In this document: in pieces, positions 5,322 through 57,569 of the stretch | Layout of the letters: each line of letters begins with the position of its first letter | Numbering within the stretch: position 1 is the first letter of the stretch | NCBI GenBank assembly: GCA_015660995.1 | Contig: JACTUC010000022.1 | Location: 1-64,000, forward strand | Reading direction: 5' to 3' | DNA from: Candidatus Methanomethylicaceae archaeon | GTDB taxonomy: Archaea > Thermoproteota > Methanomethylicia > Methanomethylicales > Methanomethylicaceae | DNA: 64,000 nucleotides | Notes under the pieces: model-generated | Told to the model about the DNA's origin: nothing | The model's input: the letters and a program-made list of their open reading frames with translations, nothing else | Database searches by the model: none | Program-made: the position numbers and the translations under genes

Positions 5322-6521
5322 TTGAGGACTGGAGATACGGATGAAATGGCAATTGTTGTCGTGTATGGGGTAGATACCTCCATAGAACAAGAAATCCAGA
5401 AGGGTAATATCTCTCAAATGCAAACCGAAATCAACAATTTCAGTTCCTTGTCAAAGATCTACCTACTAACCATGGACTACTGTTCCTATGACTCTCTTTT
5501 CAACAACAACGTCATTCACATCCCCTGTGGCTTTAAAGTCAGAAGTAATTCTTTCATAGTCCGTTTTCTTTTTTCGATAATTTACGTCTTCAGATCTTTT
5601 TTTGAAATTATGAAAAGGCGCAAAGACATTGAATTGATGGTATCTCAAGGCACAACTACTTTGCAATGTGTTGTAGCTTCAGGAATAATTAAAGTTCCCT
5701 TCATACTTTTTATCCATTACCTTTCCTATCAAGAGGAACTGATCCTGAAAAGGAAGCTTCTTGCCACAATTTTCTGGGCAATCGAAAGTTATACGATAGC
5801 GCACGCAGATCAAATTATAGCCTTAAGTCAAAAAATAAAGTCGCAAGTTCTGCCACTAAATATGAGAGTTCAAATAATTCCAAATTATGTTGATGTAAAG
5901 GTCACTGATAGGCTTGATAGAAAACAATTAAGAGAAAAATACCAATTCGGCGAATCCCTGAAGGTGATTTTGTTTGTTGGCAGATTACACCCCGTAAAGA
6001 ATGTTGATTTTCTTCTTAAGGCCTATAAACACATTGTCTCTGAGGTTAATTCCAAGGTCGTAATATTGGGAGATGGACCAGAACGGATGCCCTTGGAAGC
6101 ATTAGCAAAAGACCTCGATATAGCCGATAAAGTCGACTTTAAAGGATTCGTTCTTAAGGATGAGGTTCTTGAATATATGAACGCAAGTGACATTCTTGTT
6201 TTGCCATCATTGGTAGAAGGGCAACCCCGAGTCATATTGGAGGCTTGGGCATGTGGCCTACCGGTTGTGGCTGCAAAAAGTAGTGGCCTACAGGATCTAA
6301 TAAATGACGGAATAGATGGCATATTGTTCGATGTGCACTCCGAGAAAGAATTAGTTAATGCTATTATAGGAGCTCTGAAAGCTGCCAAATCTAATTTATT
6401 GATTGAAAATGGGGAAAAACGCGTGAAGGAATTTGAGAAAGAGAGAATTCTTTCAATGCAAATTGAAGCGATACAAACCTTACTAAATAAAACTATATTA
6501 TCAAAAACTAGGTTATCATAA
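5322..6521 (+). CDS. Glycosyltransferase family 4 (GT-B)
   Basis: 'LKVILFVGRLHPVKNVDFLLKAYK', 'ILGDGPER', 'LVLPSLVEGQPRVILEAWACGLPVVA'. Confidence 0.92.
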   Translation: MRTGDTDEMAIVVVYGVDTSIEQEIQKGNISQMQTEINNFSSLSKIYLLTMDYCSYDSLFNNNVIHIPCGFKVRSNSFIVRFLFSIIYVFRSFFEIMKRRKDIELMVSQGTTTLQCVVASGIIKVPFILFIHYLSYQEELILKRKLLATIFWAIESYTIAHADQIIALSQKIKSQVLPLNMRVQIIPNYVDVKVTDRLDRKQLREKYQFGESLKVILFVGRLHPVKNVDFLLKAYKHIVSEVNSKVVILGDGPERMPLEALAKDLDIADKVDFKGFVLKDEVLEYMNASDILVLPSLVEGQPRVILEAWACGLPVVAAKSSGLQDLINDGIDGILFDVHSEKELVNAIIGALKAAKSNLLIENGEKRVKEFEKERILSMQIEAIQTLLNKTILSKTRLS

Positions 6522-7654
6522 TGCCTAATACCAAAAAAATTCTATTTTTTACTGAAATTGACCAAGATAACCCTTACGGGTCCCATATAAGACCATTTTT
6601 TTTGGCAAAGTATCTGTGCTCCGAGAAATATGATGTATTCGCAACTTGTATCAATTATAATATCAACTCAAAATGTCCGAAATTCATCAATCTTTCTTCG
6701 ATTTTTAAATTTTCTAGACCAAAAAAATACTTATACCATTTGAAATATGGAAGAAATATTGTTCAAAAAATAAAACCCGACTACATATATACTCATCTTC
6801 ATACCGCTAGTTTTGCATTAGGATTATTGAAAATATTGAGAATTGTCAAGGAGCCTCTAATTGTTGATATGCATGGAAGTTGGGGCCTCGAAGTAAGTAA
6901 TTCACTCTTAAAGCCTGCATTGATATTGATAGAAAGTTTTTGCATATATGCGTCAGACATGACAATTGTTCCATCAGAGGAATTAAAAAAATATTTTCAA
7001 AATTCTTATGGGGTGCGACCTGGTAAAATCGTGGTTGTACCCAATGGGGTCAACAATAATTCATTTAGATTACTTAATGATCTAGAGAAAGAGAACCAGC
7101 GGGCTAAACTGGGATTGGCAAATAAAAAAATAATAATCCTAACAGCTCCTCGTAACAACAACTCAAACATAATAGCAATCAAGTTGATGTATGAAGTTAT
7201 GAAAATCGCCAAAGAAAAAGGGGTGAACCTTCAATTACTAATTTTAGGTGGGGGACCAACTGTAGGGACTCCGCCAGCAAATGTGGCGTATACTGGTTTT
7301 GTTAGGAATTTTGAGATGTTTATGTCAATAGCAGATGTGGCAGTTGCTCCCTATCCTGAAGGGGCAGCAGCAGGAGGAGCACGGAATAAAACATTGGAAT
7401 ATTTTAAATATGAAATTCCAGTCGTTTCCACTGTTGAAGGCATTAGAGGAATAGATGGAGCCATGCCTGAAAAGGATTTTATTCTTTCAAGTGATGAACC
7501 TCTCGATTTCCTTCAAAAAATTATAATGTGTATTGGTATGGATAACAAAAAAAGACAAAAAATGATTGATGATGCGAATGACTTAGTTACTCAAAATTAC
7601 ACTTGGGAAAAAAGCGCGAAGCAACTAAATGATTTTCTTAAGTCGTTAGCTTAG
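6521..7654 (+). CDS. Glycosyltransferase family 4-like
   Basis: 'IVPSEELKKYFQNSYGVRPGKIVVVPNGVNN', 'LLILGGGPTVGTPPANVAYTGFV', 'VAPYPEGAAAGGARNKTLEYFKYEIPVV'; TAATG overlap with the preceding gene. Confidence 0.88.
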   Translation: MPNTKKILFFTEIDQDNPYGSHIRPFFLAKYLCSEKYDVFATCINYNINSKCPKFINLSSIFKFSRPKKYLYHLKYGRNIVQKIKPDYIYTHLHTASFALGLLKILRIVKEPLIVDMHGSWGLEVSNSLLKPALILIESFCIYASDMTIVPSEELKKYFQNSYGVRPGKIVVVPNGVNNNSFRLLNDLEKENQRAKLGLANKKIIILTAPRNNNSNIIAIKLMYEVMKIAKEKGVNLQLLILGGGPTVGTPPANVAYTGFVRNFEMFMSIADVAVAPYPEGAAAGGARNKTLEYFKYEIPVVSTVEGIRGIDGAMPEKDFILSSDEPLDFLQKIIMCIGMDNKKRQKMIDDANDLVTQNYTWEKSAKQLNDFLKSLA

Positions 7655-7658
7655 ATGA

Positions 7659-7682
7659 TTCTATTCATGAATGTGAATAGAA
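7659..7682. terminator. Hairpin TTCTATTC-8 nt-GAATAGAA just after the stop codon of 6521..7654
   Basis: Perfect 8-bp inverted repeat followed by an A-rich stretch; function not demonstrated. Confidence 0.35.
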
Positions 7683-7746
7683 AAATGATATTTAAGCTGT
7701 TGTCAGAAAGATAATTATCTAATTTCATCTAAAGGAAACATTACCA

Positions 7747-10026
7747 ATGAATCCGCTTTATTATTTAATCCCATTAGTTTTATTCCTGCCAGGATGGTTA
7801 GCGTTAGCCAATTGGAAAAAAATAAATCTATCTGCTGTGGAATCGCTAGTCTTCGGTTGTTTATTATGGAATTTTCTATTCGTAAGCTTGAGCTATGTTT
7901 TTGGTATTTTTTCGAATTTAATCAATGAGTTTTTCGTTGCTTTTCTTGTGCTTGGCCTAATCATATCCATTGTCAGCATATACAACTTAATTGCCACAAA
8001 ATCCTTGTCTTTCAAGAAAATAGAATATACTAAATTAATATTCTCAAAATATTTCTATCTATTATGCTGTATACCCTTCGTAATTCTATTATTTTTGTTA
8101 ATTCTTGCTCATTCTACTTCAAGCGAGTATGACGCATTATTCTATTATTTGCCCCTTGCAAAATCCATTATTCTAACACACGGTTACCAATTGAACTATT
8201 TCCAACAAAATGCGCTCAGTACAACTACGTCTCCAGCAATACCATTAATGTATGCCCTTACAATCTTATTTTCACCAAATTTACTTTCAGCTGATCTTTT
8301 TCTAAGAACAATACCCATAATGTATACAATTCTGATTGCGTTGGTCGTTTTCCTTATAGGAAAAGAGATCTTAAAATCAAAAATATTATCGGCGCTAGCA
8401 GTAATTGTCTTTCTTCTCATACCCGCAACATTTTCCTTAGAGGCAAACTATTCGTTATATTTGGATCTGCCCTTCACATTATTTGTCTTTGCGTCTCTTT
8501 ATGCGCTGATAAAAGTCTATTCAAGTAAAGGGCGGCCAGTATGGCTGTTTCTCTTGTCAATGAGCATTTCTATGGCCATACTAACAAAAGATGTATCTTT
8601 TATGATCCTGCCAGCTTTACTTACAATTATAATAATCCCATTTTTACCTAAATTTAAGAGGTCATATCCACTTTTATTATTAGCTCTGTCATTATTGTTC
8701 GTCTCTACATATGAAACCCTTTTCATTAAAGACTTTTTAACTACGTCAGTGCCATCACAAATAATTCTTGAACAAGTACCAATACTTCTAGGCATTATTC
8801 TTTTTCTCGTTCTTTCCATGGGTATTAAAAACGAGAACTATACTTTTCCAAAAATAAAAGCAATATTCTTATTTCTATTACCTTTTATCCCAGTAATCAT
8901 CTTCTTAATAAGAAACCTCTTAATGTTCGGAGCAATTTCCAGCTCATTCCCGTTCGTCTCTAACAATGAAGCAAATTGCGCCTCGATAGTATTGTCCAAC
9001 TCCTTGGGTGGGAAGATCTTACCCCAAAATATTTTCGATGTAACAAAGTATGGTATACTCTTTTCTGACATACAATTGGGTGCTTTATTCTTTCTACCCT
9101 CAATTATTGGGATCATTATGGTGGCAAAAGACACACTTCAAAAAAGAAGCAAAGAATCGTTTATTTTACTTTCGTTTTTCCTTATTTTATTGGTCCTTTG
9201 GTCTCGCACCCTTCAATTCACATATTCAGGGTCAGAGGTTAGATATCTATTTTATTTTTCACCATTGTTTGCAATCTTCATAGTGAAAGGTGCCAGCTCT
9301 TTTTCAGCATATACTAAGGTATGCTCAACCTTCATCTCACGCTTTGTGGCATATCTTTTAATTATTTTATTTTTGCCTATGATCTATCTCATCATCAATG
9401 AGAATGTGAATATAACGAATATTGGTCCCGCCTTTCTATCGTTAGGAATCGCAGACTATGGCCTCATAGCCACCTTTTCTATTATCTTCCTAGCAATTTT
9501 TTATCTCAAATTACCAAAGAACTTAAAACTGAACAACAAACAAATCAAATTAATCATCGTGATAATCCTTACGTCACTTCTATTAATCGGAACTTCATCG
9601 ATATTATCTGGAGGTTTGCTTCACACTGAAACTTCCGTTAATTACGTTTATCCTGGATGGGAAAATAATCTTAATGAAGTCATTACCTATCTTAACCAAA
9701 ACAACAGTGCCAATTCAACAATAATTACATGTTACGCATTACCAATATCTTACTTTACTAATTATTCCATAATTGACTCTGAAAATCTTAATGGGGTTAT
9801 GACTCTGATACAGATAAACTCAAGCGATCCTCAGATGCTCAATAATACCCTTTTAGAATATAATGTTCAGTATTTACTCTATCCCAACTCTGGCAATAAT
9901 TACTTTGATCGATTTAATAACCTGAGTGCAAGTCTTCCTATATTAAATATAACCTATTTGAACAATTACCTAAAAATAATTCCTGTTAAAGAGTTTACTG
10001 ACTATACCCTTTACAAAATTCCCTAG
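7747..10026 (+). CDS. Large polytopic membrane protein, GT39/PMT-like (dolichyl-phosphate-sugar transferase type)
   Basis: 759 aa with many TM segments and a hydrophilic C-terminal domain; 'SEYDALFYYLPLAKSIILTHGY' resembles the first-loop motif of GT-C enzymes. Confidence 0.7.
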   Translation: MNPLYYLIPLVLFLPGWLALANWKKINLSAVESLVFGCLLWNFLFVSLSYVFGIFSNLINEFFVAFLVLGLIISIVSIYNLIATKSLSFKKIEYTKLIFSKYFYLLCCIPFVILLFLLILAHSTSSEYDALFYYLPLAKSIILTHGYQLNYFQQNALSTTTSPAIPLMYALTILFSPNLLSADLFLRTIPIMYTILIALVVFLIGKEILKSKILSALAVIVFLLIPATFSLEANYSLYLDLPFTLFVFASLYALIKVYSSKGRPVWLFLLSMSISMAILTKDVSFMILPALLTIIIIPFLPKFKRSYPLLLLALSLLFVSTYETLFIKDFLTTSVPSQIILEQVPILLGIILFLVLSMGIKNENYTFPKIKAIFLFLLPFIPVIIFLIRNLLMFGAISSSFPFVSNNEANCASIVLSNSLGGKILPQNIFDVTKYGILFSDIQLGALFFLPSIIGIIMVAKDTLQKRSKESFILLSFFLILLVLWSRTLQFTYSGSEVRYLFYFSPLFAIFIVKGASSFSAYTKVCSTFISRFVAYLLIILFLPMIYLIINENVNITNIGPAFLSLGIADYGLIATFSIIFLAIFYLKLPKNLKLNNKQIKLIIVIILTSLLLIGTSSILSGGLLHTETSVNYVYPGWENNLNEVITYLNQNNSANSTIITCYALPISYFTNYSIIDSENLNGVMTLIQINSSDPQMLNNTLLEYNVQYLLYPNSGNNYFDRFNNLSASLPILNITYLNNYLKIIPVKEFTDYTLYKIP

Positions 10027-16037: not shown

Positions 16038-19000
16038 ATGCAAAAAAAGTATCTATATTTGACTTTAGCGATTTTTCTGTGCTTTGCAGTTGTCTTTGCA
16101 TCAGGAATGACTATTGCTAACGATAATGCTTGCAAAAAAACTCTCATCACAGCCCCAACCGGCGGATCGCCAGGCACTTTTCATGTTGGTGACACAGTTT
16201 CATGGAATATAACCGTCTATTCGTCCAATACGTCAATTCCAAACAATCCTGCGGTAATGAAGGATCTAATTATCTATGATAACCTTCCAGCGGGCGTAAC
16301 CTTTGTAACCGGCACCAACTGGAGCAGTTCTACAGCTACCTTCAGCGTAATAGGCACCAATCTGTTGAAATGGGACTTTGGCAGTACAACACTAAATGGG
16401 ATGCCTCAGGCTTGGGTCAACTTTAGCGTGACAATCAACAATGTCCCGGCCAATACGGTTCTAACCAATACTGCAAATTGGACAGCTAATGTGTACGATG
16501 TCATCGCCAACGATTGGCAGTCCATATCCGTCCCTGCCTTCGATTCCATACGGATCGTTAAGTCGCCATCAACGCTTACAACAGCACTCAATGTCACAAG
16601 CCCAATAGTCATGGGGACTCCGTTCCATGATAGCGCAACCTTGGGCGGCCACGTCTCTGGGTACGACATGAATAATACTGCGACCATATCCTTCTACTAC
16701 AGCACTGACGACGTCAACTGGATCCAGATAGGCAGCGCACAAAGCGCGCCGTCAAATGGCGGAACGGTCAATTCAGCTGACGTAACTGGATTAGCCGTTG
16801 GTACTTACCACTTCAAGGCCAACTACACTGGCAATACCTACTACAGTAGCGTAACAAGCGCCGATCTTTCAGAAAACTTGACCATCACTCAAGCCCCGTC
16901 TACCACCACTACCAAGCTCAATGCAACGACAATAAGCAATATACCGACAATAACGCTGGGTGGAACGGTGCACGATATGGCTAATGTGACCTTCACCGTC
17001 CCGATTGGGCCATACCCCCAGCCTGCAGGAACCATTACATTCCTCATTGCCTACAATAGCAGCTTACAATGGCAAGTCTTGAGTAGTGGTCCTGGGACAT
17101 GGGATCCATCGACTCATACCTTCTATGCAATCTCCGTCGACGTCACTCCGAATAGCACCGGTTACTACTACTTCAATGCGACCTACAGTGGCGATGGCAA
17201 CTACTCGGCCAGCCACGACTGCTATTCGAAGGAGGTGCCACAAAGCGAGATACTGCACGTATTGAAAGCTCCTACAAACGTCACCACTCTGCTCAATGCC
17301 ACAGGCCCGATAACCCTTGGCCAAAATGTCACCGACACAGCCACAGTAACTGGTGGTGTCTTGGGCATAGTCCCCACAGGGACCGTCACCTTTGATTATA
17401 GGTTCCCCAATAACGGGACATGGAAGACCTACGACACTGAGACCCTGTCCGGTGGCGTGGCAACGTCCAAGCCTTTCACGCCAACCCAGGCAGGTGTTGT
17501 TTACTACTTCAACGTCACCTACAATGGTGATGGCAACTACAGCTGCAGCACCTCTAATGTAACGAGTGAGCATATTACCGCGAACAAAGCCACTCCGACA
17601 GTTAATACTGCGTTGCTATCTGTCACTGGTGCACCCATAACGAGTATCATCCTGGGCCAGGGCGCAAATGATACGGCCACAGTAACTGGTGTCTTGGGCA
17701 TAGTCCCAACAGGCACCGTCACCTTCAGTGTACAGCTACCCAATGGTACATTGGTGACCTTCGATTCAAATCAACCCCTGGTGGCAGGCTCGGCGACTTC
17801 CACAGCCTATTACCCGCTGGGAAATGGGACCTACCTATTCCAGGCTACCTACAATGGCGATGGCAATTATCTAACCGCAACCAGCAATATAACAACTGAA
17901 CCTTTGGTTGTTACTGCGACTACAAGTGAAATAGACACCTACCTCAACGCGACTACGATAACGTTGGGCTCAACGGTTTACGATACAGCCAATGTTACAT
18001 TCCCAGTATCGATTCCGCCGTACCCCGTTCCGACAGGGAGCATAAGCTTCTCGGTGAAGCTAATCGGCGGCACGTGGGAATCACTAGGAAATGTGGTCGG
18101 CACTTGGGATTCATCCAATAACCGGTTCTATGCGAACTCGGCTGAGTTCACTCCTAACCAGACTGGGACCTACTACTTCAATGCAACCTACAGTGGCGAT
18201 GGCAACTACACAGGTTCCCATGAACAGGGCAACTCTGATACCCGACTGGAGAAGCTAGTTGTAACCAACGCGACTCCAATAGTCACCACTCAACTCAATG
18301 CTACATTGATAACCTTGGGAGCTGGTGTGACGGATACCGTCACCGTAACGGGTCTAGGCATCGGCTTCCCGGTACCGACTGGCACCGTACAGTTTACTGT
18401 GCAGTGGCCTAACTTGACTGTAACCAACCTTGGCACACCGGTGACTTTAGACGCATTTGGCATGGCAACATCCATACCCTTCACACCACCTTTCACTGGC
18501 TCTTACCTCTTCAACGCCACATACTCCGGAGATAGCAACTACAATGCAGCCTCTGACGCCATAGCTTACCAAAATCCAGAGCTTCTAATAGTTGCGCGAG
18601 GCAATGTAACGGTCACAACTCAGCTCAATGCTCTGACAATAAACTTTGGCCAGAGTACCACAGACACGGTCACCGTGACGGGCCTAGGCGGCATCTTCCC
18701 GATACCGACAGGCTCTGTTCAGTTCATTGTTAACGGGTCAAACCTCGGCAGTGCTGTAAACCTCGATGCATCCGGCATGGCAACATCTCCAGTCTTCACG
18801 CCAACTCAGGTAGGCACCTACTACTTCACCGCCGAATACAGTGGCGATGGCAACTACACTGGCAGCACATCGCAGATCACAGTAGATGAGACTCTTACCG
18901 TCGGTCCAGGCACTCCAACAGTGGAAACCCGTATCAACGGCTCAGTGGACACAATACAGTCCGTCCTCGGCGACCAATTCAATGATGAAGCCATAGTTAC

Positions 19001-20193
19001 AGGCTTTGACGGAGTTACGAGTTACTCCAACTGGAACTGTCATGTTCTTCCTGTACTGTCCAAACGGCACAACCATCAACTTCGACAATGAGCCATTAGT
19101 CGATGGAGTAGCATACTCCTCATACGTAACACTCAACCCTGCAGGCTTCTACTACTTCTCCGTATGGTACACTGGTGATGGCAACTATACTGGCCAGGTG
19201 AGTTACGCAGAATCATTCACCGTCGGTCCAGGCACATTAATAACCACTCTGCTTAACACAACCTGGATCAACCTTGGTCAATCTGTCTCCGACTCCGTCA
19301 CGTTTGTTGGAGTCCAAAATGGCTACCCAGTCCCAACAGGCACTGTCGAGTTCCAGAACAACGACACTGGCGTATGGGTAACCTTCGACACCGAACCGCT
19401 GTCCAACGGAATGGCCACTTCTGGGCCTTTCACTCCAACGCACGCAGGGAAATTCTTCTTCCGTGCATGGTTTGACGGAGATACAAACTACATGCCAACT
19501 GGCAGTTGCCCGTTCGGTGAACCGCTAAGGGTCTACCCACCGCTTCCTACTATAGAGACAATTCTTAGCAATGGTGCACCCACCATCGGTGACGCAGTCT
19601 ATGACACCGCTACACTGACTGGCTACGGTTCCTTATCGCTTGCAGGGGCCAACATACAGTTCTGGTACATGGCACCTGGTGGTCAATGGGCACCTTTAGG
19701 CAGCCCACAGCTTGTAACAAATGCCGCTGGCGGTACATTTACATCCATATATCTCATGCCCAACATCGTTGGTAACTGGTTCATTAAGGCTAACTATACT
19801 GGCAATGCGAACTATTGGCCTGGTGAGAGCGGAGTTGAGCTTATACAAGTTCAGCAGGACACTCCGACAGTAACAACCTATCTCAGCGCTACAAACATAA
19901 CTATCGGCGAGTCAATATATGACAACGTTACAGTCACTGGCCTCGGCGGCAACTTCCCAGTACCAACAGGTACTGTCCATTTCCAGAATAACGACACCGG
20001 CGTATGGGTAACCTTCGACAATGAAACGCTGTCCAACGGAATGGCCACTTCTCAACCTTTCTATCCATCGCACACAGGGATCTTCTTCTTCCGTGCAGTA
20101 TACGATGGCGACAGTACTTACACAACAGCTCAAAGTGGCAAATGCATAGAGATCGTAATGGTCTATCCTGAACCTATTGGCTACATTGATTAA
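16038..20193 (+). pseudogene. Giant secreted Ig-like-repeat surface protein (about 1,380 aa if intact), split into ORFs 16038..19091 and 19006..20193 by a +7-bp duplication
   Basis: Signal peptide 'MQKKYLYLTLAIFLCFAVVFASGMTIA', then about 10 repeats of '..TxLNATxITLGxxVxDTATVTG..PTGTVxF......AGTYYFNATYSGDGNY'; repeats continue in the +1 frame after 19012-19025. Confidence 0.85.
19012..19025 (+). repeat. 7-bp tandem duplication GAGTTAC GAGTTAC causing the frameshift
   Basis: Removing one copy gives continuous in-frame 'VTGFDGVTPTGTVMFFLYCPNG', matching the repeat consensus. Confidence 0.9.
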
Positions 20194-45039: not shown

Positions 45040-45094
45040 CTTTAAACGCACTTAGACACCCCTTAGACAACACTTAAATCCCCCTTATACACCC
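45040..45094. repeat. Array of five degenerate 11-bp tandem units (CTTARACAcCC)
   Basis: CTTTAAACGCA CTTAGACACCC CTTAGACAACA CTTAAATCCCC CTTATACACCC, contiguous, exact 11-bp register. Confidence 0.7.
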
Positions 45095-45166
45095 CCACGA
45101 TAATCTAAATAACAATAAAAAAGCTTAACAAGATTCTAGTAACTCTTTTCCGCAGGGGTAAGGATA

Positions 45167-45811
45167 ATGTACAAACGTCAAACAGCACTTTATGAAAAAA
45201 CACTTCGAAGACTTATCCCTTTCTACGAAAAAGAATTGGAAAAGACAATAGGTGACTGTAATACAATATTGGATTTAGGATGTGGCGTTATTTCGCCAAT
45301 ACGACATTTTTCATCTAGATTATATGCAGTAGGGGTGGATTGTTTTTTACCCGCAATCAAAATCAGCAAGATGAATGGCATTCATTCAGACTATATCTAT
45401 ACTGATATTCTTAATGCATTAGACTCCTTCCTTCCAGAATCGTTTGATTGTGTAATTGCTCTAGATTTAATCGAGCATTTGAAGAAAGAGGAGGGTTATC
45501 GACTTATTAAACTCATGAATAAAGTTGCTAAAAAAATGATAATAATATTTACTCCTAATGGATATGTCTCACAAGATGCTTTGGATAATAACCCTTGGCA
45601 AATCCATCGGTCTGGATGGACCATATCCGAATTTAATAAAATAGGATTTACCGTGATAGGTATAAGTGGTATAAGATTTCTATATGAAGGGCGTGCCTTT
45701 AAATATAAACCAACATGGTTTTGGGCAATATTGTCAGATATCACACAAATTATCGTTAAAAATCATCCTGAATACGCTTTTCAGTTATTATGTTATAAAG
45801 AAAAACATTAA
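45167..45811 (+). CDS. Class I SAM-dependent methyltransferase
   Basis: 'NTILDLGCGVISPIRHFSSRLYAVGVDCFLPAIKISKMNG', 'FDCVIALDLIEHLKKEEGYRLIKLMNKVAKKMIIIFTPNG'. Confidence 0.9.
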   Translation: MYKRQTALYEKTLRRLIPFYEKELEKTIGDCNTILDLGCGVISPIRHFSSRLYAVGVDCFLPAIKISKMNGIHSDYIYTDILNALDSFLPESFDCVIALDLIEHLKKEEGYRLIKLMNKVAKKMIIIFTPNGYVSQDALDNNPWQIHRSGWTISEFNKIGFTVIGISGIRFLYEGRAFKYKPTWFWAILSDITQIIVKNHPEYAFQLLCYKEKH

Positions 45812-46007: not shown

Positions 46008-46274
46008 ATGACGAAGTCGCGGAGGTCTCCCTACACCAAGGGTCAGCTCAATAAAATAATTGATGGCATGGTGCACCCTCTTGCGCGCGGAGATGACAAA
46101 CTTATGGCATTGGTGTTGGACTCGGTGCTCCACGCTATCATTGAGCAAGATGTTAAAACAAGTGCTCGGAAGTTCATTAAATACAACGCACCCCTTTTAA
46201 TCGGCGAGCTAACCAAGGAAAGCCACAAAGGGAGCAGGCCAAAGCGCGCCCGGGGTAAAAGCCACCGGCGGTGA
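46008..46274 (+). CDS. Small basic protein of unknown function
   Basis: 88 aa, helical centre, Arg/Lys-rich C-terminus 'KESHKGSRPKRARGKSHRR'. Confidence 0.5.
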   Translation: MTKSRRSPYTKGQLNKIIDGMVHPLARGDDKLMALVLDSVLHAIIEQDVKTSARKFIKYNAPLLIGELTKESHKGSRPKRARGKSHRR

Positions 46275-46425
46275 AATAACTGGCAGGGCAAAGGCACAGG
46301 AAGAGTATGCTAGTCAAAGAAGCTAAAGGTTGCACCTGGGGAAATAACTTACCATTACCCGTCTGGAATAATATCAAAACCTGCAAAGGAAAAACATTTC
46401 ATTGTCATACGTTATAAATAAACAT

Positions 46426-47625
46426 ATGACGGGTAAGACTTCTTATAGAGAACTTCACGAAGTATTCTATTACTGGCTGAACGGCAAGGGATATGAGACC
46501 CTCTCAAAGGAAACTGGCGTGAGCATTGGCAAGATTTCTGAAGTACTAAAGGTGGTCAATGCTGCCATACCCGATATTGAAGAGCTTAGAAAACTTAAGA
46601 TGGAGCAAAACACCAAAAAAATAAGCACCAAAGAGGCCGCTGATGGTATCGTCGCTCAGAACACATTGCGCTCACTAAACCTGACAATGAATAACGTAGC
46701 TGAAAGCGTCTCCCTCCTAAAGCACTACGGAGTCAAGGCGCCATCGGTTCTGGAACGCGGGGAGTACCTATGGGAGATTGAAGAGAGAGTAGGAAAAAAA
46801 TACGATCTCATTGTCGATGAGGCTGAAAAGAAGTCCCTCCAAATAGCTTCAATGGACAATGAAACAAAAGACCTACTGAAAAAAAAGAGCGACCTTGAAG
46901 AAGCTATGCCAGAACTGGAAAGTCTAAAAAAACTAAAGTCCAGACTCGACTCATATCAACTTTCAGCAGAAAAACTAGATGGGTTCATCGACTATCAGCT
47001 ATGGCTGCAAAAATCCGGTTTTACCAGTGATACTGCTAAACTGTTCGCATCAACCCTTAAAAACGAAGGTCTGGACCCGAAGAGTGCCGCTGAAATATTT
47101 CCATCGCTCATTATAAAAGGCAAAAACTTCAGCGCATCCATCAAAGAGAAAGAAATGGAGCATGCGCAGCTTGCAACACAGGTAGGCTCGAAAAAAGAGT
47201 TGCTTGAGCGATTGACTGATAATGAAAAGGACCTCAAGCACAACCTCGAAGTACTCCAAGGTTCAATAGCCCAAAACAAAGCTTCTTTGGACGACATCGA
47301 AAGAAAGATCGCTGACAAAAACAACGAAAAAGCTTCAATAGAAGAAAAAATGAGGGAACTCGAAACATCAATTAAAAAATACGAAGAGGAAGTGCATGGG
47401 AAAATGCTCTATCGCGTATTTGTTTCGTTGACAGAAACCCCGACGGTCCGCTTAGATCGCTTGGAATTAATTAATGCTTTATTCGGCCTTTCCGAAGGCG
47501 TGAAGATCTATGTTGATAAATTCCCCTCAGAGTTTTACCTTTCAGACGCTTTACGAGAAATATTTAGGTCGCTGGCTGGCAACCTCTTGGAGGAGTTACA
47601 GCATGCAAAGCAGCCCACCTCTTGA
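46426..47625 (+). CDS. N-terminal HTH plus long coiled-coil protein of unknown function
   Basis: 'SYRELHEVFYYWLNGKGYETLSKETGVSIGKISEVLKVV' reads as an HTH; residues from about 150 to 330 are Lys/Glu/Leu heptad-like. Confidence 0.75.
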   Translation: MTGKTSYRELHEVFYYWLNGKGYETLSKETGVSIGKISEVLKVVNAAIPDIEELRKLKMEQNTKKISTKEAADGIVAQNTLRSLNLTMNNVAESVSLLKHYGVKAPSVLERGEYLWEIEERVGKKYDLIVDEAEKKSLQIASMDNETKDLLKKKSDLEEAMPELESLKKLKSRLDSYQLSAEKLDGFIDYQLWLQKSGFTSDTAKLFASTLKNEGLDPKSAAEIFPSLIIKGKNFSASIKEKEMEHAQLATQVGSKKELLERLTDNEKDLKHNLEVLQGSIAQNKASLDDIERKIADKNNEKASIEEKMRELETSIKKYEEEVHGKMLYRVFVSLTETPTVRLDRLELINALFGLSEGVKIYVDKFPSEFYLSDALREIFRSLAGNLLEELQHAKQPTS

Positions 47626-48295
47626 ACGCCTTTCAAGGCTAATAGCCACCCTTGAATCAGCAAGAGAAGAAATCAACAGGTCAGGACCTGGCATTAATCG
47701 CTTAATCTTTGATGCCTTAAGGCTCGATTCTGCGTATCGCGTGGCGAAGAAGTTTGAAAGAATTAGATCAGATGTAGAAGAAAAGGATTTGAATATCAAA
47801 AGATATGACATAGAGGACCAGGTCGTCATTATCGAGGCGTTCACCCTAAAATTTCTAGGTCAAAGCATTCCTCGTATTAACGCTTTAAAAGCTAACAAGG
47901 AAACGGATAAAATTAATTTTCCTAAAATGTTTAAAAAGAATGGCACTATCAACTTGTTCTTTGAGGAGTTCAAACAAATTGTGGACGGGCTCCTTCTGGA
48001 GATAAAAAATGGGAAGGAGGACGAACGTTTGCTACTCCCTGCCGAGAAGCTCATCTTTGACAAGCTATTCGACTATGCCAAAGCAAAATATGCAAACTAT
48101 TCTGAGACCGAAGAAAAATCTATTTCCTCTGAAAAAGAAACGGGTGGTCCCCCTACCCCCTCAGCCAAAACTTGGGAGGTAGTAGCGAAGCCTGAACCAA
48201 AACCTAGGAAAATGGTTGTAGTCAAACATATGCCAGTTCAAAAACCTAACTCTGAAACCGGGCAGGAGTCGAATAATAAGAAAACGCAAGACTAG
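47603..48295 (+). CDS. Partner protein of the HTH/coiled-coil protein, unknown function
   Basis: ATG at 47603 overlaps the upstream gene by 23 bp; mostly helical, with a basic C-terminal tail. Confidence 0.65.
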   Translation: MQSSPPLERLSRLIATLESAREEINRSGPGINRLIFDALRLDSAYRVAKKFERIRSDVEEKDLNIKRYDIEDQVVIIEAFTLKFLGQSIPRINALKANKETDKINFPKMFKKNGTINLFFEEFKQIVDGLLLEIKNGKEDERLLLPAEKLIFDKLFDYAKAKYANYSETEEKSISSEKETGGPPTPSAKTWEVVAKPEPKPRKMVVVKHMPVQKPNSETGQESNNKKTQD

Positions 48296-48354
48296 TCCTT
48301 TTTTTCACGAGTCAAGAAGAAGTGTTGTCTCTACTCCTTTCCCCTCTCTAATAC

Positions 48355-48379
48355 TCAGTAATATAATAATATTCAGTAA
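48355..48379. repeat. Direct repeat TCAGTAA x2, 18 bp apart
   Basis: 48355-48361 and 48373-48379, read directly. Confidence 0.4.
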
Positions 48380-48384
48380 GTGTG

Positions 48385-48464
48385 CATTTGCGTGAACACG
48401 TGAACATTTGCGTGAAAACGTGAAATGGTCCATGAAAAAATGAACTTACGTGAAAAAATGTATT
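48385..48464. repeat. Iteron-like array of four 20-bp units with paired (C)GTGAA/ATGAA half-sites
   Basis: CATTTGCGTGAACACGTGAA / CATTTGCGTGAAAACGTGAA / ATGGTCCATGAAAAAATGAA / CTTACGTGAAAAAATGTATT. Confidence 0.75.
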
Positions 48465-48600: not shown

Positions 48601-49659
48601 ATGAAGGCCCTCATCCTCAGCGGCGGCAAGGGCACGCGTCTCCGCCCCCTTACCTTTACCTTGGCAAAGCAGCTCATCCCCGTTGCCAACCGCCCCATCC
48701 TGGGCTACGTCCTCGACCAGGTTGCCAGCGCTGGCATAAAGGAGGCCGGCGTGATCATCGCCCCAGAGACTGGCCAGTACGTCAAGGACTACGTAAGGGA
48801 CGGCTCCGAGTGGGGAATGGCTGTCGAGTACATCCTCCAGGAACCCTTGGGGCTAGCCCACGCCGTGAAGCAGGCCCGGCCCTTCCTTGGCAGGTCTAAT
48901 TTCATAATGTGTCTGGGAGACAACCTCCAAGGCAAGGGTGTAACGGACCTCATCAAGCGCTTTGAGAAGGAGAAGCTGGACTGCCTAATCCTCCTGAAGG
49001 AGGTACCTGACCCCCAGCGTTTTGGCATAGCAGTCCTCGACGCAAAGGGCGAGGTGATCAAGCTGATCGAAAAGCCCAAGGAGCCGCCGACCAACCTCGC
49101 AGTCGTGGGCACCTACGTCTTCTCTCCCAAGGTCCACCTCGCCGTGGACCGCATAAAACCCTCCTGGCGCAACGAGCTCGAGATAACCGATGCCATACAG
49201 GAGATGGTAAACATGGGCTTCAAGGTAAAGGCAGAGGTCCTCGACTCTTGGTGGCTGGACACTGGCAAGAAGGACGACATCCTAACCGCTAACCAGATCA
49301 TCCTCGACCAGTATCTCAAGGGCGAGGTTCTTGGAACCATCGAAGAGAGCGAGATCAAGGGCAGTGTCCGGGTCGTACCTGGCGCCAGGGTCACCAAGAG
49401 CAAGATACAGGGTCCGTGCATAATCGGCAAGGGCGCCGTCGTGGAGAACTCCTTCGTTGGTCCCTACACCAGCATCGGAGAGGGATCGCAGGTGATCAAC
49501 TCTGGCATTGAGAACTGCATCCTCCTGGAGTTCTCCATGGTGAAAGATGTGGCGCACCTCGAGGACAGCTTGCTGGGAAAGCATTCTCTGATCTCAAAGA
49601 ACGGCAAGGGTCGATCAGTACGAGCCCACATCGGGGACTACTCCGAGGTTGAGGTTTGA
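48601..49659 (+). CDS. rmlA: Glucose-1-phosphate thymidylyltransferase, long archaeal form
   Basis: 'MKALILSGGKGTRLRPLTFTLAKQLIPVANRPILGYVLDQV', C-terminal left-handed-beta-helix-like repeats; rml operon context. Confidence 0.95.
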   Translation: MKALILSGGKGTRLRPLTFTLAKQLIPVANRPILGYVLDQVASAGIKEAGVIIAPETGQYVKDYVRDGSEWGMAVEYILQEPLGLAHAVKQARPFLGRSNFIMCLGDNLQGKGVTDLIKRFEKEKLDCLILLKEVPDPQRFGIAVLDAKGEVIKLIEKPKEPPTNLAVVGTYVFSPKVHLAVDRIKPSWRNELEITDAIQEMVNMGFKVKAEVLDSWWLDTGKKDDILTANQIILDQYLKGEVLGTIEESEIKGSVRVVPGARVTKSKIQGPCIIGKGAVVENSFVGPYTSIGEGSQVINSGIENCILLEFSMVKDVAHLEDSLLGKHSLISKNGKGRSVRAHIGDYSEVEV

Positions 49660-49683
49660 AACTTCTGGCATTGGGGTCTTAAT

Positions 49684-50574
49684 ATGCGCATACTCATAAC
49701 CGGGGCGAACGGGCTCCTTGGCTCAAAGCTTGCCGCAACGGCTCTCTCCAGGGGCTTCGAAGTCTTTTCTGGCTATATCTTGGACTCTCCAATGGTAGGG
49801 AAGCCTATCCCCATGGACATTACGGACGAGGCCTCAGTCCGAAGGGCTTTTAAGCAGTCCCGCCCGGACGCGGTCTTCCACTGCGCAGCCATGACCGACG
49901 TGGACAAGTGCGAAGAGGACCAGGAAGCCGCAATCAAGGTCAATTCAGAGGGCACACGCACCATTTCAAGGCAAGCCGCCCTTTCCAGTTCCTATATCGC
50001 CTACATCTCCACCGACTATGTCTTCGACGGCGCAAAGGGCAACTACATAGAGTCCGATCCGACCAATCCGGTCAACGCCTACGGAAGGTCAAAGCTCCTC
50101 GGCGAGGAAGTGGTCAGATCCTCCGGCGCCGACTTCCTGATTGCCCGCTCCAGCGTAATCTACGGCGCGCAACCCGCGATGGGCAAGGTCAACTTCGCCC
50201 TCTGGCTCCTCGAGTCCCTCCGTGCCCGCAAACCCGTCACCCTCCTCACCGACCAGTGCGTCTCACCAACCCTCAACACTTCCCTTGCTGGAATGCTCCT
50301 CGAATCCTTTGAGAAACATCTGACCGGCACCTATCACATGGCGGGCGCGACCCGCGTCTCCCGCTACGAATTTGGCTCCGCACTCGCAGGCACATTTGGC
50401 CTCGACCAATCCCTCATCAGAGCTGCTACAGCGCTGGACTTCCAGGGACGGTGGAAGGCAGCGCGTCCTCCAGACTCTTCCCTCGACGTTTCCAAGGCCA
50501 CTTCCATCCTGCAGACCAAACCGCTCGCCTTAAATGACGCACTGAAAGAGTTAAGAGAGGAGATTGATGGCTAA
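49684..50574 (+). CDS. rmlD: dTDP-4-dehydrorhamnose reductase
   Basis: 'MRILITGANGLLGSKLA', 'FHCAAMTDVDKCEEDQEAAIKVN', 'YISTDYVFDGAKGNYIESDPTNPVNAYGRSKLLGE'. Confidence 0.95.
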   Translation: MRILITGANGLLGSKLAATALSRGFEVFSGYILDSPMVGKPIPMDITDEASVRRAFKQSRPDAVFHCAAMTDVDKCEEDQEAAIKVNSEGTRTISRQAALSSSYIAYISTDYVFDGAKGNYIESDPTNPVNAYGRSKLLGEEVVRSSGADFLIARSSVIYGAQPAMGKVNFALWLLESLRARKPVTLLTDQCVSPTLNTSLAGMLLESFEKHLTGTYHMAGATRVSRYEFGSALAGTFGLDQSLIRAATALDFQGRWKAARPPDSSLDVSKATSILQTKPLALNDALKELREEIDG

Positions 50575-51074
50575 TGCTCCCTGGCGTAGCCGTAAGGCAG
50601 CTCAAGAAGTTCCCAGACGAGAGAGGCACATTCACAGAGATCATGCGGTCTGACTGGAGCGACGTCATAAGGGACGGAATAGTCCAGGCAAACTACTCCT
50701 TCTCTTACCCAGGCGTCGTGAGGGCTTGGCACAGGCATGCGAGGGGACAGGTGGACCACTTCCTGTGCATAGGTGGCTCAATCAAGATATGCGCCTACGA
50801 TGAGGCCTCGGCTGAGATCGACGAGATAGTTGCATCGGGCGAGTCTCTCCAACTGGTCCGCATTCCGGGGAACTACTGGCATGGGTTCAGTGTTGTGGGC
50901 TACAGTCCCGCCTCGCTCATATACTTCGTCAACCGCCTCTACGACCCAAAGGTGCCAGACGAGCTGCGGAGGCCATGGGACGACCCGATAGTCATCCCCA
51001 AGTTGATAAATGGAAGAGCGGACGATCCCCGTTGCGGCAAGCCTTGGGATTGGCATTCCGTTCCCCTCAAATGA
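50574..51074 (+). CDS. rmlC: dTDP-4-dehydrorhamnose 3,5-epimerase-like
   Basis: 'FPDERGTFTEIMRSDWSDV', 'QANYSFSYPGVVRAWHRHARGQVDHFLCIGGSIKI', 'YWHGFSVVG'. Confidence 0.9.
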   Translation: MLPGVAVRQLKKFPDERGTFTEIMRSDWSDVIRDGIVQANYSFSYPGVVRAWHRHARGQVDHFLCIGGSIKICAYDEASAEIDEIVASGESLQLVRIPGNYWHGFSVVGYSPASLIYFVNRLYDPKVPDELRRPWDDPIVIPKLINGRADDPRCGKPWDWHSVPLK

Positions 51075-51096
51075 TTGCATAGTATGGTGAGATGTA

Positions 51097-52104
51097 TTGG
51101 CTATAACGAGCGTCCTTGCGACTGGGGGGCTTGGCTTCATTGGAAGCAATTTCATCCGCCTCTTGCTTTCGGAGACTGGCTACAACATCATCAATATCGA
51201 TAACCTCTCCTACGGCTCAAACCTAAAAAACCTGGATGATCTTAAGGATGTTCCCAAGTATCGTTTCGTGAAGGGAGACATCTCCGACCCTGACCTTATG
51301 GTTCGCCTAGTGAATGAGTCCGATGCCGTTGTAAACTTCGCCGCTGAAACCCACGTGGACAGGAGCATATCCGATCCACTGCCATTTCACAGGACGAACG
51401 TTGGTGGCGTACTCACAATTCTTGAGGCTATCCGTAAGGCAGACCGGGACGTGCGCCTGGTGCAGATAGGCACGGACGAGAGCTATGGCGACATTACACA
51501 TGGCTCCTTTGCCGAATCAGACAGGCTCAGTCCGTCATCGCCTTACGCTGCATCAAAGGCTTCCGCAGACCTCTACGTAATGGCCTATCGCAGGACCTAC
51601 GGGCTGAACGCCTGCATCACCCGGTGCACAAACAATTATGGGCCATATCAGTTTCCGGAGAAGCTCATACCGAAGACAATAATACGCGCCAAGATGGGCC
51701 TGAAGGTTCCCATATATGGTACAGGAAAGAACGTTAGGGACTGGATCTACGTCCTCGACCATTGCGAGGGAATCAAAGCAGTTCTGGAAAAGGGGAAGCC
51801 AGGCGAAATCTACAATATTTCATCAGGCAATGAACTCAATAACCTTACTGTAGTCAAGATGATTCTCAGGCTTCTCAAGCTACCCGAGAGCTTCATTGAA
51901 TTCGTTGATGATCGCCCGGGGCACGATCTCCGCTACAGTCTTGATTCCCGAAAAATCAGGGAGGAGTTAGGGTGGTCTCCGACAAATACGTTCGAGAAGG
52001 GGATCTCAGAAACCGTAAGCTGGTACCTTTCGAACGATAAGTGGTGGAAACCCCTATCAAATGAGAAAACGCTACACCCTGCCCCTTGGAAACTAAAATG
52101 GTGA
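51097..52104 (+). CDS. rmlB: dTDP-glucose 4,6-dehydratase
   Basis: 'ATGGLGFIGSNFIRLLL', 'FAAETHVDRSISDPLPFHRTNVGGV', 'GTDESYGDI', 'YAASKASADL', 'ITRCTNNYGPYQFPEKLIPKTI'. Confidence 0.96.
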   Translation: MAITSVLATGGLGFIGSNFIRLLLSETGYNIINIDNLSYGSNLKNLDDLKDVPKYRFVKGDISDPDLMVRLVNESDAVVNFAAETHVDRSISDPLPFHRTNVGGVLTILEAIRKADRDVRLVQIGTDESYGDITHGSFAESDRLSPSSPYAASKASADLYVMAYRRTYGLNACITRCTNNYGPYQFPEKLIPKTIIRAKMGLKVPIYGTGKNVRDWIYVLDHCEGIKAVLEKGKPGEIYNISSGNELNNLTVVKMILRLLKLPESFIEFVDDRPGHDLRYSLDSRKIREELGWSPTNTFEKGISETVSWYLSNDKWWKPLSNEKTLHPAPWKLKW

Positions 52105-54833: not shown

Positions 54834-57569
54834 TCAAATTATTAAGAAGAGGTCGGTGGTGACCTCACCTGTCAGGGAATTGGTGTAGTTTCCATCAAAG
54901 ACGTAGTCGGCGTAGACCGTATGGTTCCCTCCAACCATGGAAGGAACGATAAAGGTGTTAGTCCCATTGATCTGGCCATTGCTTCCCACCGAAGAGTTCA
55001 GGACCCAGTAATAATTGTTGGTGGAGTTTTCAAAGTAGAGGTAGATGGGTCCCGGTGCGAATCCTTGGCTTTGAACGGTCACCCTGGTCCCAATATCACC
55101 TCTGGCAGGTGTAAGCACCAGGGTTGGAAGGACATTGATGGAGAATGTGAAATTGGCTGTGGTAAGTGCATTTGCAACCGTGACCTTGTGGATGCCGCCG
55201 GCAAGAGCCGGAATGGTGAAGGTGGCATTGAAGAAGCCCGTTGCGTTGGCCGTTGTTGTCCCTAGGGCTGTGGAGCCATCGATGGTGAAGACCACTGGCG
55301 AAGTGGGGTTGAAGCTGTTGCCTGCGAAGGCATAGTTGGATAACGGGTTGACATTGTAGGGACCCGTGCCATTGCCAAAGGTGCCGACGACCCCAGCCAG
55401 CTCAAGAAAGACCCTGCTTGGTTCGCTGAAGAAGCTATTGGTCACGAAGGAGCCGCTGGCGTTCAGGAGGTCGATCTCGACATTGGTGGTGGGGGTCGTG
55501 GTCCAGTCAGCGCCCGTGTCCCTCACGTTAAAGGTGGAGCTGAAGGAACCTTTGCTGTCGGTGATAACCTGGGCGAAGGCCATGGAGCTGTTGCCGTAGG
55601 TAAGGTTGTACTGGGTGTTTGCCTCCAACGCATTGCCATAGACCCCAACGGCTGCTCCCGCCGGACCGGAAGCTGGTGTCAGGGTAAGCGAAGGCTGCAC
55701 CATGATCGGCTGCCGGGCGACAACGACGCCACCATCGTAGACTTTTATGTACCTATAGTCCTGGGTTATGTTCAGGGGTATGGGCCCCATGAGCATCTCT
55801 GCCGAAACTCCATTGATGGTTCCATTGCCCTGGTAGAAGGTGGCTCTGCCGTTGGGCAGGAATGAATCGGATATTTGGATCGCCGTGGGGAAAGGACTGC
55901 TGAAAGCGCTGACGTCGAATCCCATGGCGTAGGGTATGTCACCTGGGCTGAGGGAGGCGTATCCATCCCGACTCATGTAGAGGTCGAACTGCGACCCGGA
56001 GAAGGTCACTAGGTTGGCGCCATTGTAGGTGAAGATTATCACCAACCCTTCGTTTGCAACGGGGACCCCGTCAACGGCAGAAACGTTGAGACTGCCGGCC
56101 GCGACCGCAATGTTTTGGGAGGGGATGTCTCCGGTGTTGTTTGTGGATAGGGAGAGTCCACCCAGCCACGGGTTACCCGTTATTCCGCCCTGCTGGTTGG
56201 AGTGCTGGAAGTTGATAAAGTCCAGATTGGTTATGGGTGCATGGCCACTTGTGGCGTTGAAGGCATAGCCATCAGGCGGTGAGATGCGAAGCCATCCGGA
56301 TTGGGAAGTCTCGTTGATGGTGCAAATGCCCGATTGGTTGATGGTGAAAGAGTAGTAGCCGCCGGAACCCGTTGTGCTGTTGGCAACGAGACCCGTGGCA
56401 TTGTAAAGGTCGACAGCCCAGCCCGAGACCCCGTTGCCATTCCACACATCCACATGGCCCGATACTATGAATGGCACGAATGTTGGAAGGGTAACGTTCG
56501 AATTCACTAATGTGGCTGCGACACCGGAAGTGACCGCAATATAGTTTCCGTCGCCACCGTAGACCGCTCTGAAGAATGAGGTCCCAGTTTGGTTGGGTGT
56601 GAAGATCGAAGAGGCTGCCACCCCCCCGATCAGGTTCTCAACATCAAAGGTCACCCAGACCCCCGTGTCGTTGTTCATGAACTGGATGGGGCCCGTGGGT
56701 AGAGGGAAGTTCCCCCCCAGCCCCATGACTTCAATATAGGAGCGGATGCCCTCTCCCAGGGTTATGTTGTTTGAACTCAAATCGATTGTCATGGTGGGAG
56801 TGGCAGCTGAGACATTCACGACCTCAAGGGTCGTGATGGTGGAGGGCCAGCTTCCAAAATAATTGCCGTCGCCGGCGTAGGTTGCATTGAACTGATAGGT
56901 CCCGGCCTGCAGGGGTGTGAATGAATGGGAGATTGCCACACGCTGCTGGCTGGTTGAATTCCAATAATAGACAAAAGTGCCCAGTGGCAGCCATGCCCCT
57001 TCGCTGCCTAACCTATACTGGAAGGTAATAGCCCCCGAGGGCAACGGTAGCAGCCCTGCAACAATGGGGAAGAAGACGCTGGCCGTGTCCCTTACGGAAG
57101 CGCCCAAGGCTATGATGGTAGCGTTGAGCATGGTCGAGGTGACGCTTGGGGCCTTGTTTATGGTGATACTGGATATATTGCTCAACGAACTGAGGTACCG
57201 TGAGCTGCCAGGGGTATAGTTGGCCTTGAAGTAGTAGGTTCCAGTACCTATGGGAGGAACCGCCACCGAAACAATTCCACCAGAGTTAGGAACATTCTCT
57301 GTATCAAGCAAAGTCCAGCTGGCATTATCCGTACTCCAGTAAAAGATGATGAGGGCATTGGTCCCATTCATCGGGGAACCGGCAACGTAACCACTCAAAT
57401 TTGCAGTTGCAGTAAAAGGCGTCCCCAGAGTCATGGGTCCTGTGGTGTTGAAACCAACTACTAATGACGTAGCCCTTGGCGTTGGGGGGGTGGTGAAGAC
57501 GTACACTCCCACTGCTGCTACTGCAATAATTATGATTATGCTAACCAAGATCAAATACTTTCTATCCAT
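54834..57569 (-). CDS. Large surface protein, N-terminal TM, Ig-like repeats plus SdrD/Cna_B-like domain
   Basis: TM 'YLILVSIIIIIAVAAVGVYVF'; Ig-repeat units ending 'FNATYAGDGNY', 'FMNNDTGVWVTFDVENL', 'VSGHVDVWNGNGVSGWAVDLYNATG...GYYSFTINQSG'. Confidence 0.85.
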   Translation of the reverse strand: MDRKYLILVSIIIIIAVAAVGVYVFTTPPTPRATSLVVGFNTTGPMTLGTPFTATANLSGYVAGSPMNGTNALIIFYWSTDNASWTLLDTENVPNSGGIVSVAVPPIGTGTYYFKANYTPGSSRYLSSLSNISSITINKAPSVTSTMLNATIIALGASVRDTASVFFPIVAGLLPLPSGAITFQYRLGSEGAWLPLGTFVYYWNSTSQQRVAISHSFTPLQAGTYQFNATYAGDGNYFGSWPSTITTLEVVNVSAATPTMTIDLSSNNITLGEGIRSYIEVMGLGGNFPLPTGPIQFMNNDTGVWVTFDVENLIGGVAASSIFTPNQTGTSFFRAVYGGDGNYIAVTSGVAATLVNSNVTLPTFVPFIVSGHVDVWNGNGVSGWAVDLYNATGLVANSTTGSGGYYSFTINQSGICTINETSQSGWLRISPPDGYAFNATSGHAPITNLDFINFQHSNQQGGITGNPWLGGLSLSTNNTGDIPSQNIAVAAGSLNVSAVDGVPVANEGLVIIFTYNGANLVTFSGSQFDLYMSRDGYASLSPGDIPYAMGFDVSAFSSPFPTAIQISDSFLPNGRATFYQGNGTINGVSAEMLMGPIPLNITQDYRYIKVYDGGVVVARQPIMVQPSLTLTPASGPAGAAVGVYGNALEANTQYNLTYGNSSMAFAQVITDSKGSFSSTFNVRDTGADWTTTPTTNVEIDLLNASGSFVTNSFFSEPSRVFLELAGVVGTFGNGTGPYNVNPLSNYAFAGNSFNPTSPVVFTIDGSTALGTTTANATGFFNATFTIPALAGGIHKVTVANALTTANFTFSINVLPTLVLTPARGDIGTRVTVQSQGFAPGPIYLYFENSTNNYYWVLNSSVGSNGQINGTNTFIVPSMVGGNHTVYADYVFDGNYTNSLTGEVTTDLFLII

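Follow-up and report, generated by a model that had tools for sequence, protein, structure and literature searches.

An archaeal gene pair for an HTH-coiled-coil protein and an overlapping helical partner, with linked arrays of short direct repeats

Introduction

In the 64-kb window analysed here (64,000 nucleotides from the start of contig JACTUC010000022.1 of a Candidatus Methanomethylicaceae archaeon), three co-directional ORFs followed by a repeat array adjoin a glycan island of low GC content at 33-46 kb and precede the rmlADCB genes. What do these ORFs encode, and do they form one unit with the array? A preliminary description had taken all three proteins (P1, P2 and P3) and the array as an undescribed module for DNA partition, tethering or replication, or as a defence or regulatory cassette. 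We examined each component and its relatives in other archaea.

Results

The locus and its surroundings

The three ORFs, the array and the rmlADCB flank of the preliminary description were all recovered in place (Table 1). Among the Pfam-scanned ORFs of the 64-kb window there was no integrase, ParA or replication gene, and neither the Rfam nor the tRNA scan gave a match in the window. The glycan genes are flanked by large, repeat-rich surface proteins with Big_3_5 (Ig-like) domains at 16038-20193 and 54837-57569. A further short tandem array with an 11-bp period (CTTAGACACCC) lies at 45049-45095, upstream of a methyltransferase ORF at 45167; its motif is unlike the P2-linked boxes described below, and an 11-bp phasing also occurs in front of some P2 homologs.

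Table 1. Coordinates of the features discussed, in the window unless a locus is named
Feature	Position	Strand	Remark
P1, 88 aa, net charge +12	46008..46274	+	
P2, HTH and long coiled coil, 407 aa	46402..47625	+	ORF start TTG 46402
P2 N-terminal tri-helical HTH, aa 7-47 counted from ATG 46426	46444..46566	+	Predicted helices and family alignment
P3, helical partner, 230 aa	47603..48295	+	Overlaps P2 by 23 bp
Direct-repeat array, seven CGTGAACA-like boxes	48391..48459	+	Candidate P2 binding site
rmlADCB (dTDP-rhamnose genes)	48601..52104	+	Identity read from sequences
rmlADCB ORFs	48601-49659, 49684-50574, 50574-51074, 51097-52104	+	
Dispersed elements of genome G345	L158:1100-1260, L159:1-200, L160:5480-5763		AAATACGCATGCGTATTT palindrome and TTGAAC boxes, spacing 8, 12, 20, 21 bp

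P1 is a neighbour of the pair

The basic protein P1 is not a chance ORF, because it has a paralog in the same genome (contig C27, 49% identical) and homologs in two other genomes (G091 and G052, E about 1e-17). None of these genes has a P2/P3 pair alongside, and for this reason P1 was left out of the module; it belongs to a separate small family of basic proteins and adjoins the module, of which it is probably not a member; the membership first proposed for it was not borne out. The homolog in G091 adjoins a ParA ATPase gene at a locus that differs from the P2-P3 loci. The C27 paralog (L119, 9787-10074) is followed by a 191-aa gene, beyond which lie genes resembling a type I restriction-modification system.

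P2 and P3 form an overlapping pair

Alignment with relatives favours ATG 46426 over TTG 46402 as the likelier start of P2. Structure models of P2 and P3, predicted without deep alignments, are of low confidence (mean pLDDT 45-51). For P2, they place HTH helices at residues 7-18, 23-30 and 34-47 (low to moderate confidence) and, after this tri-helical HTH, long helices at 108-196 and 225-336 (low confidence). The HTH alignment of 14 family members has the core G-s-G-x-(I/V)-S/T, and P2 relatives weakly match the HTH_23, Sigma70_r4_2, PAX and Sleeping Beauty HTH models. The predicted helices and the coiled-coil matches thus agree with the N-terminal HTH and long coiled coil first noted in P2. 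No library names the protein: Pfam, NCBIfam, PHROGs and PADLOC returned coiled-coil noise only, and no KfrA model appeared among its Pfam matches at E<=1. Readings of these proteins as ParB or SMC found no support, as P1-P3 contain no ParB (CTPase) or SegB domain and P2 has no ABC-type ATPase head of the SMC/Rad50 kind; its library matches cover the coiled coil only and lie far below cut-offs.

The overlap between the P2 and P3 genes is exactly as long as previously described, and P3 is preceded by a Shine-Dalgarno sequence, GGAGG, at 47589-47593. A low-confidence model (pLDDT 45) is all-helical, in line with the mostly helical protein first read from the sequence, and the C-terminal tail is probably disordered. 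P3 has no naming match in Pfam, NCBIfam, PHROGs or PADLOC. The earlier suggestion that P3 recalls GINS found no support in sequence searches, in which neither P3 nor a P3 profile gave such a match.

The pair recurs in distant archaea

No P2/P3 relatives were found in 22 genomes of the same family or 40 of the same class, and relatives were reached only by searches of the wider phylum. Single-protein queries with P2 or P3 had no match in viral contigs or plasmids, and a two-row P2 profile had none in GTDB contigs or viral contigs. A genome of another class (G209) encodes a full-length P2 relative (28% identity over 327 aa, E 2e-36), together with an overlapping 136-aa gene whose product resembles P3 at its C-terminus; a single comparison of the two gave 39% over 33 aa with E 5e-4. 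From this pair of sequences, the two-row profile led to Nitrosopumilaceae-like genomes (family f12), in which the HTH-coiled-coil gene again has behind it a small, overlapping gene for a helical protein; a further profile search added P2 relatives from several archaeal families. Profile-profile comparison of the window/G209 pair with the f12 proteins gave an hhalign probability of 96.9 (E 1.6e-10), and the P2 homology between them is solid. Homology of P3 is detectable between the window and G209 only, with none to the partners in other families, which may be unrelated small helical proteins. The HTH-coiled-coil gene and its partner overlap by 1-23 bp in all 12 pairs found (12/12; families f1, f45, f12, f70 and f73).

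Genomes of family f48, mostly 2-5 Mb in size, carry several to many P2-type genes, mostly solitary. This family is probably Nitrososphaeraceae; we infer both names, Nitrosopumilaceae-like for f12 and Nitrososphaeraceae-like for f48. At L005, L040 and L008 of f48 the genes are solitary and short; in these genomes the gene family has expanded, and part of it is broken. Matches of the P2 profile to the coiled coil only, in other families (e.g. L038 and L045), were left out of the relatives. One of these, at L038 (G149, 469-2689), is a coiled-coil protein with no HTH and a similar middle region, which adjoins an OB-fold, SSB-like gene and may be a distant chromosomal relative. We found no description of the P2-P3 pair in the open-licence literature.

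The patchy distribution, and the many and broken copies in Nitrososphaeraceae-like genomes, would suit an anti-virus defence or regulatory cassette, as would the type I restriction-like genes in the vicinity of the P1 paralog. Domains of an effector, nuclease, NTPase or toxin are absent, however, and the PADLOC matches are coiled-coil cross-matches for P2, with none for P1 and P3. We consider a defence role very unlikely.

An array of short direct repeats follows the pair

The array of the window comprises boxes of 8-9 bp, with TGAA at 48393, 48401, 48413, 48421, 48433, 48441 and 48451, that is, at spacings of 8/12/8/12/8/10 bp. Its tandem score was 23, compared with 8.1 ± 1.3 in 500 dinucleotide shuffles, none of which reached this value (z above 10); no other intergenic gap of the 64-kb window exceeded z 3.2. 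Of the 24 occurrences of the hexamer CGTGAA in the 64 kb, five fall within 64 bp at the array. The repeats first described as a four-unit, 20-bp iteron-like array are therefore real (0/500 shuffles), but seven shorter boxes fit them better; the 20-bp reading is an approximation because only two such units are near-perfect.

A search of the same 1.63-Mb genome for GTGAA-N3..8-GTGAA-N3..8-GTGAA gave, besides this array, one further place, C26:5914-5942 (minus strand), and the reversed-pattern control gave no occurrence in that genome. The C26 array (GGTGAACGATATCGTGAACAATATCGTGAACTTTTTCGTGGACACGTGAAATGG) shares CGTG(A/G)A(A/C)ACGTGAAATGG with that of the window.

Arrays lie directly upstream of P2 homologs

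The preliminary description had proposed asking whether genes and array co-occur in other archaea, and had regarded an array unlinked to the genes in relatives as evidence against a module. We found that the linkage recurs in distant archaea, so the array is not such an unlinked neighbour. In relatives, arrays of TTTGAAC, TGAACA or TTTGAC boxes with a phasing of about 11 or 20-21 bp lie directly upstream of the P2 homolog: eight TTTGAAC at 20-21 bp in L059, five ATTTGAACA at 20 bp in L058, four CATTTGACG at about 21 bp in L061, four TGAACA in G209 (L016), and, upstream of P2-type genes in f48, 11 copies of TTTGAA and nine of TTTGAC at 11 bp. The upstream arrays at the f48 loci named above (L005, L040, L008) are very regular, including also TGACGG x5, with spacings in multiples of 11 bp. 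A significant 6-mer cluster (p<=0.01) was present in 8 of 46 P2 upstream regions versus 1 of 236 for other genes (Fisher p 2e-6); 28 of the 46 P2 genes lacked a significant upstream array (p>0.05). When all of 420 five-mers were compared with no prior motif, the three that most often made up the top cluster next to a module were TTTGA, TGAAC and TGACG. Across the locus as a whole, TGAAC is clustered most densely beside the P2 gene in the window and in L016, L058, L059, L060, L096 and L017; in L060 and L096 this cluster lies partly within a small gene just upstream of P2. A spacing of 8/12 (=20) bp recurs, with 8,12,8,12,8,10 in the window, 12,12,12,8 in C26, 8,9,12 in G209 and 8,12,20,21... 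in the Nitrosopumilus-like arrays. Left out of the arrays were the TGAAC triples in G128, G617 and G099, which are for the most part repeats of coding type (TGAACCAACACC...).

The positions of these arrays bear on a rival explanation, namely that P2/P3 are a plain transcriptional regulator that neither tethers nor maintains DNA and that binds the array to control rmlADCB (surface rhamnose), as well as the gene which the second array precedes. The window array lies downstream of P3, and its boxes point to rmlA, which follows about 140-210 bp further on; the array may also be an rmlA operator. The C26 array likewise precedes a gene on the same strand, by about 80-130 bp, and points to it, and the relatives' arrays upstream of P2 would serve as autoregulatory operators. 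The boxes are absent from the P2 promoter of the window. In genome G345 there are three or more additional arrays, nearly identical to one another and all adjoining a AAATACGCATGCGTATTT palindrome (Table 1); one of these elements is just behind an ammonia monooxygenase subunit B-like gene and one behind a TFIIB-like gene. Arrays in trans at C26 and L158 occupy operator-like positions, but that at L160 lies behind an opposite-strand gene and not at a promoter, which counts against plain regulation; so does the combination of a long coiled coil with a co-translated partner, which is unusual for a simple repressor. We regard plain regulation as a serious contender that nevertheless falls well short of an even chance.

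Marine relatives of the pair often adjoin integrases

In f12, the pair or the P2 gene adjoins tyrosine-integrase-like genes at L060, L096, L098, L099, L100 and L104, most of these matches being below Pfam's cut-off. At L060, a ParA ATPase (AAA_31, E 1.5e-28) is encoded close downstream of P2-P3. Because the marine relatives often lie beside integrases, and once beside ParA, a mobile-element origin of the pair is suggested. No integrase was seen at L058/L059 or L061 in the stretch read (by reading alone). At L104 (G188, 5719-9013), a P2 gene remnant occupies the same integrase-flanked chromosomal site as L060 and L096; it adjoins a protein of about 1000 aa resembling a P-loop NTPase.

The ParA gene of L060 raises the question of a partition system proper, with centromere-like arrays, P2 as the centromere-binding protein and a ParA-type motor encoded elsewhere. 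The dispersed near-identical arrays of G345 and the two arrays in the genome of the window would agree with this. Against it, the pair has no neighbouring ParA gene in the window, G209 or the other relatives inspected, the ParA gene of G091 belongs to a different locus, and P2 has neither a ParB nor a SegB domain. Such a system is improbable here. The same mobile context, and the iterated boxes adjoining a gene for a DNA-binding protein, could also point to the remnant of a plasmid, namely its replication (iteron) module. Here the odds are slimmer still, given that P1-P3 lack domains of an initiator, primase, MCM or Rep protein and that no replication gene was seen between array and pair in relatives.

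Discussion

What stands of the module first proposed is an undescribed HTH-coiled-coil protein, its partner and an array, with a linkage that recurs; P1 falls away. Among the roles considered for it, tethering or maintenance is consistent with the likeness to KfrA/KfrC, the integrases and the one ParA gene, but replication finds no Rep domain and defence finds only PADLOC noise.

By analogy of architecture, P2-P3 and the array are probably the archaeal counterpart of KfrA/KfrC, that is, an autoregulating, array-binding coiled-coil tether. Within this reading, binding of P2 to the array is the part in which we place most confidence and is very likely; a tethering or maintenance role for the pair is more tentative, a possibility somewhat below even. 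P2 and P3 would be a co-translated DNA-binding module in which a P2 dimer, with its HTH and a long coiled-coil arm, binds cooperatively to TGAAC-core boxes of the same orientation, spaced such that all of them would lie on the same helical face. P3 would be a dedicated structural partner, made in step with P2 through the overlapping frames. Where the array is at the promoter, P2 would most likely repress its own operon, because the array of the relatives sits upstream of the P2 gene. The arms may oligomerise on one array and may also bridge separate arrays, since the array of the window lies behind P3 and a second one is found on another contig. Plasmid KfrA, with KfrC as its partner, operates in this manner, as an autoregulator and as an accessory tether that aids the keeping of an element. 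The module may have begun as a maintenance or stability function of integrating elements that was later stranded, or adopted, in the glycan island.

A broader proposal is an undescribed archaeal system of site-specific tethering or segregation, in which P2 and the partner co-translated with it would act on TGAAC arrays that are dispersed and helically phased; integrating elements would have carried this system across Thermoproteota-type archaea, and in ammonia oxidisers it would have become fixed or multiplied. On the evidence above, this is doubtful. If P2 does grip its arrays as proposed, archaeal chromosomes contain arrays that have gone unrecognised, with a possible part in the organisation or regulation of distant loci. 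The module also gives a handle by which function can be tested for a P2 family that the libraries used do not recognise. Members of this family are found in several families of archaea, and large Nitrososphaeraceae-like genomes have many copies.

Comparison with known systems

Integrated mobile elements of thaumarchaea include conjugative elements in which ParB-like proteins are coupled to TFIIB (PMC6563490). The likeness to these elements is that marine relatives of the pair adjoin tyrosine integrases; the main text of that paper does not contain the term "coiled-coil", and we found no description of the P2-P3 pair in it.

With SMC/Rad50 proteins, P2 shares coiled-coil arms that are broken mid-way, but it differs in having no ATPase head and in that its DNA-binding part is an HTH. 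SegAB and ParABS systems, including the archaeal AspA-ParB-ParA of pNOB8, resemble the pair in sequence-specific binding at repeats near the gene, which is putative for P2, and in the ParA gene beside one P2-P3 relative. They differ in that P1-P3 lack a ParB/SegB domain, the window lacks ParA and its array consists of direct repeats. Sites of the parS-like or SegB kind are palindromes, unlike direct repeats.

The closest characterised architecture, by analogy, is that of KfrA/KfrC of plasmid RA3 (also KfrA-KfrB-KfrC of IncP plasmids). KfrA of the IncU plasmid RA3 has an HTH head, a coiled-coil tail and a helical partner, KfrC; its operator contains five 9-nt repeats, of which at least two to four are needed; and it contacts ParA/ParB, with broken DNA binding leading to plasmid loss (PMC7783346). 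P2 likewise has an HTH head and a long coiled-coil tail in its predicted helices, as found in the KfrA family, and a row of short direct repeats lies next to the module in the window and, in relatives, upstream of the P2 gene, with P2 as the putative binder. Each protein has a helical partner, and the role of KfrA/KfrC is an accessory one in keeping an element (PMC7783346). Filaments or complexes with the helical partner and with ParA/ParB are a further trait of the KfrA family; for P2, a partner gene is present. P2 further differs in being archaeal, in lacking a KfrA sequence match and in the HTH of its relatives, which is of the HTH_23/Sigma70_r4/PAX type. The P3 gene lies directly behind the P2 gene and overlaps it, the P2-linked boxes have a TGAAC core in contrast to TGTATTGTA of KfrA RA3, and the window array is downstream of the pair, with a second array elsewhere in the genome. 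On this analogy P2 is KfrA-like in its presumed working and not a KfrA member by sequence. If this is true, archaea and bacterial plasmids share a design in which coiled-coil proteins grip repeats, perhaps reached independently.
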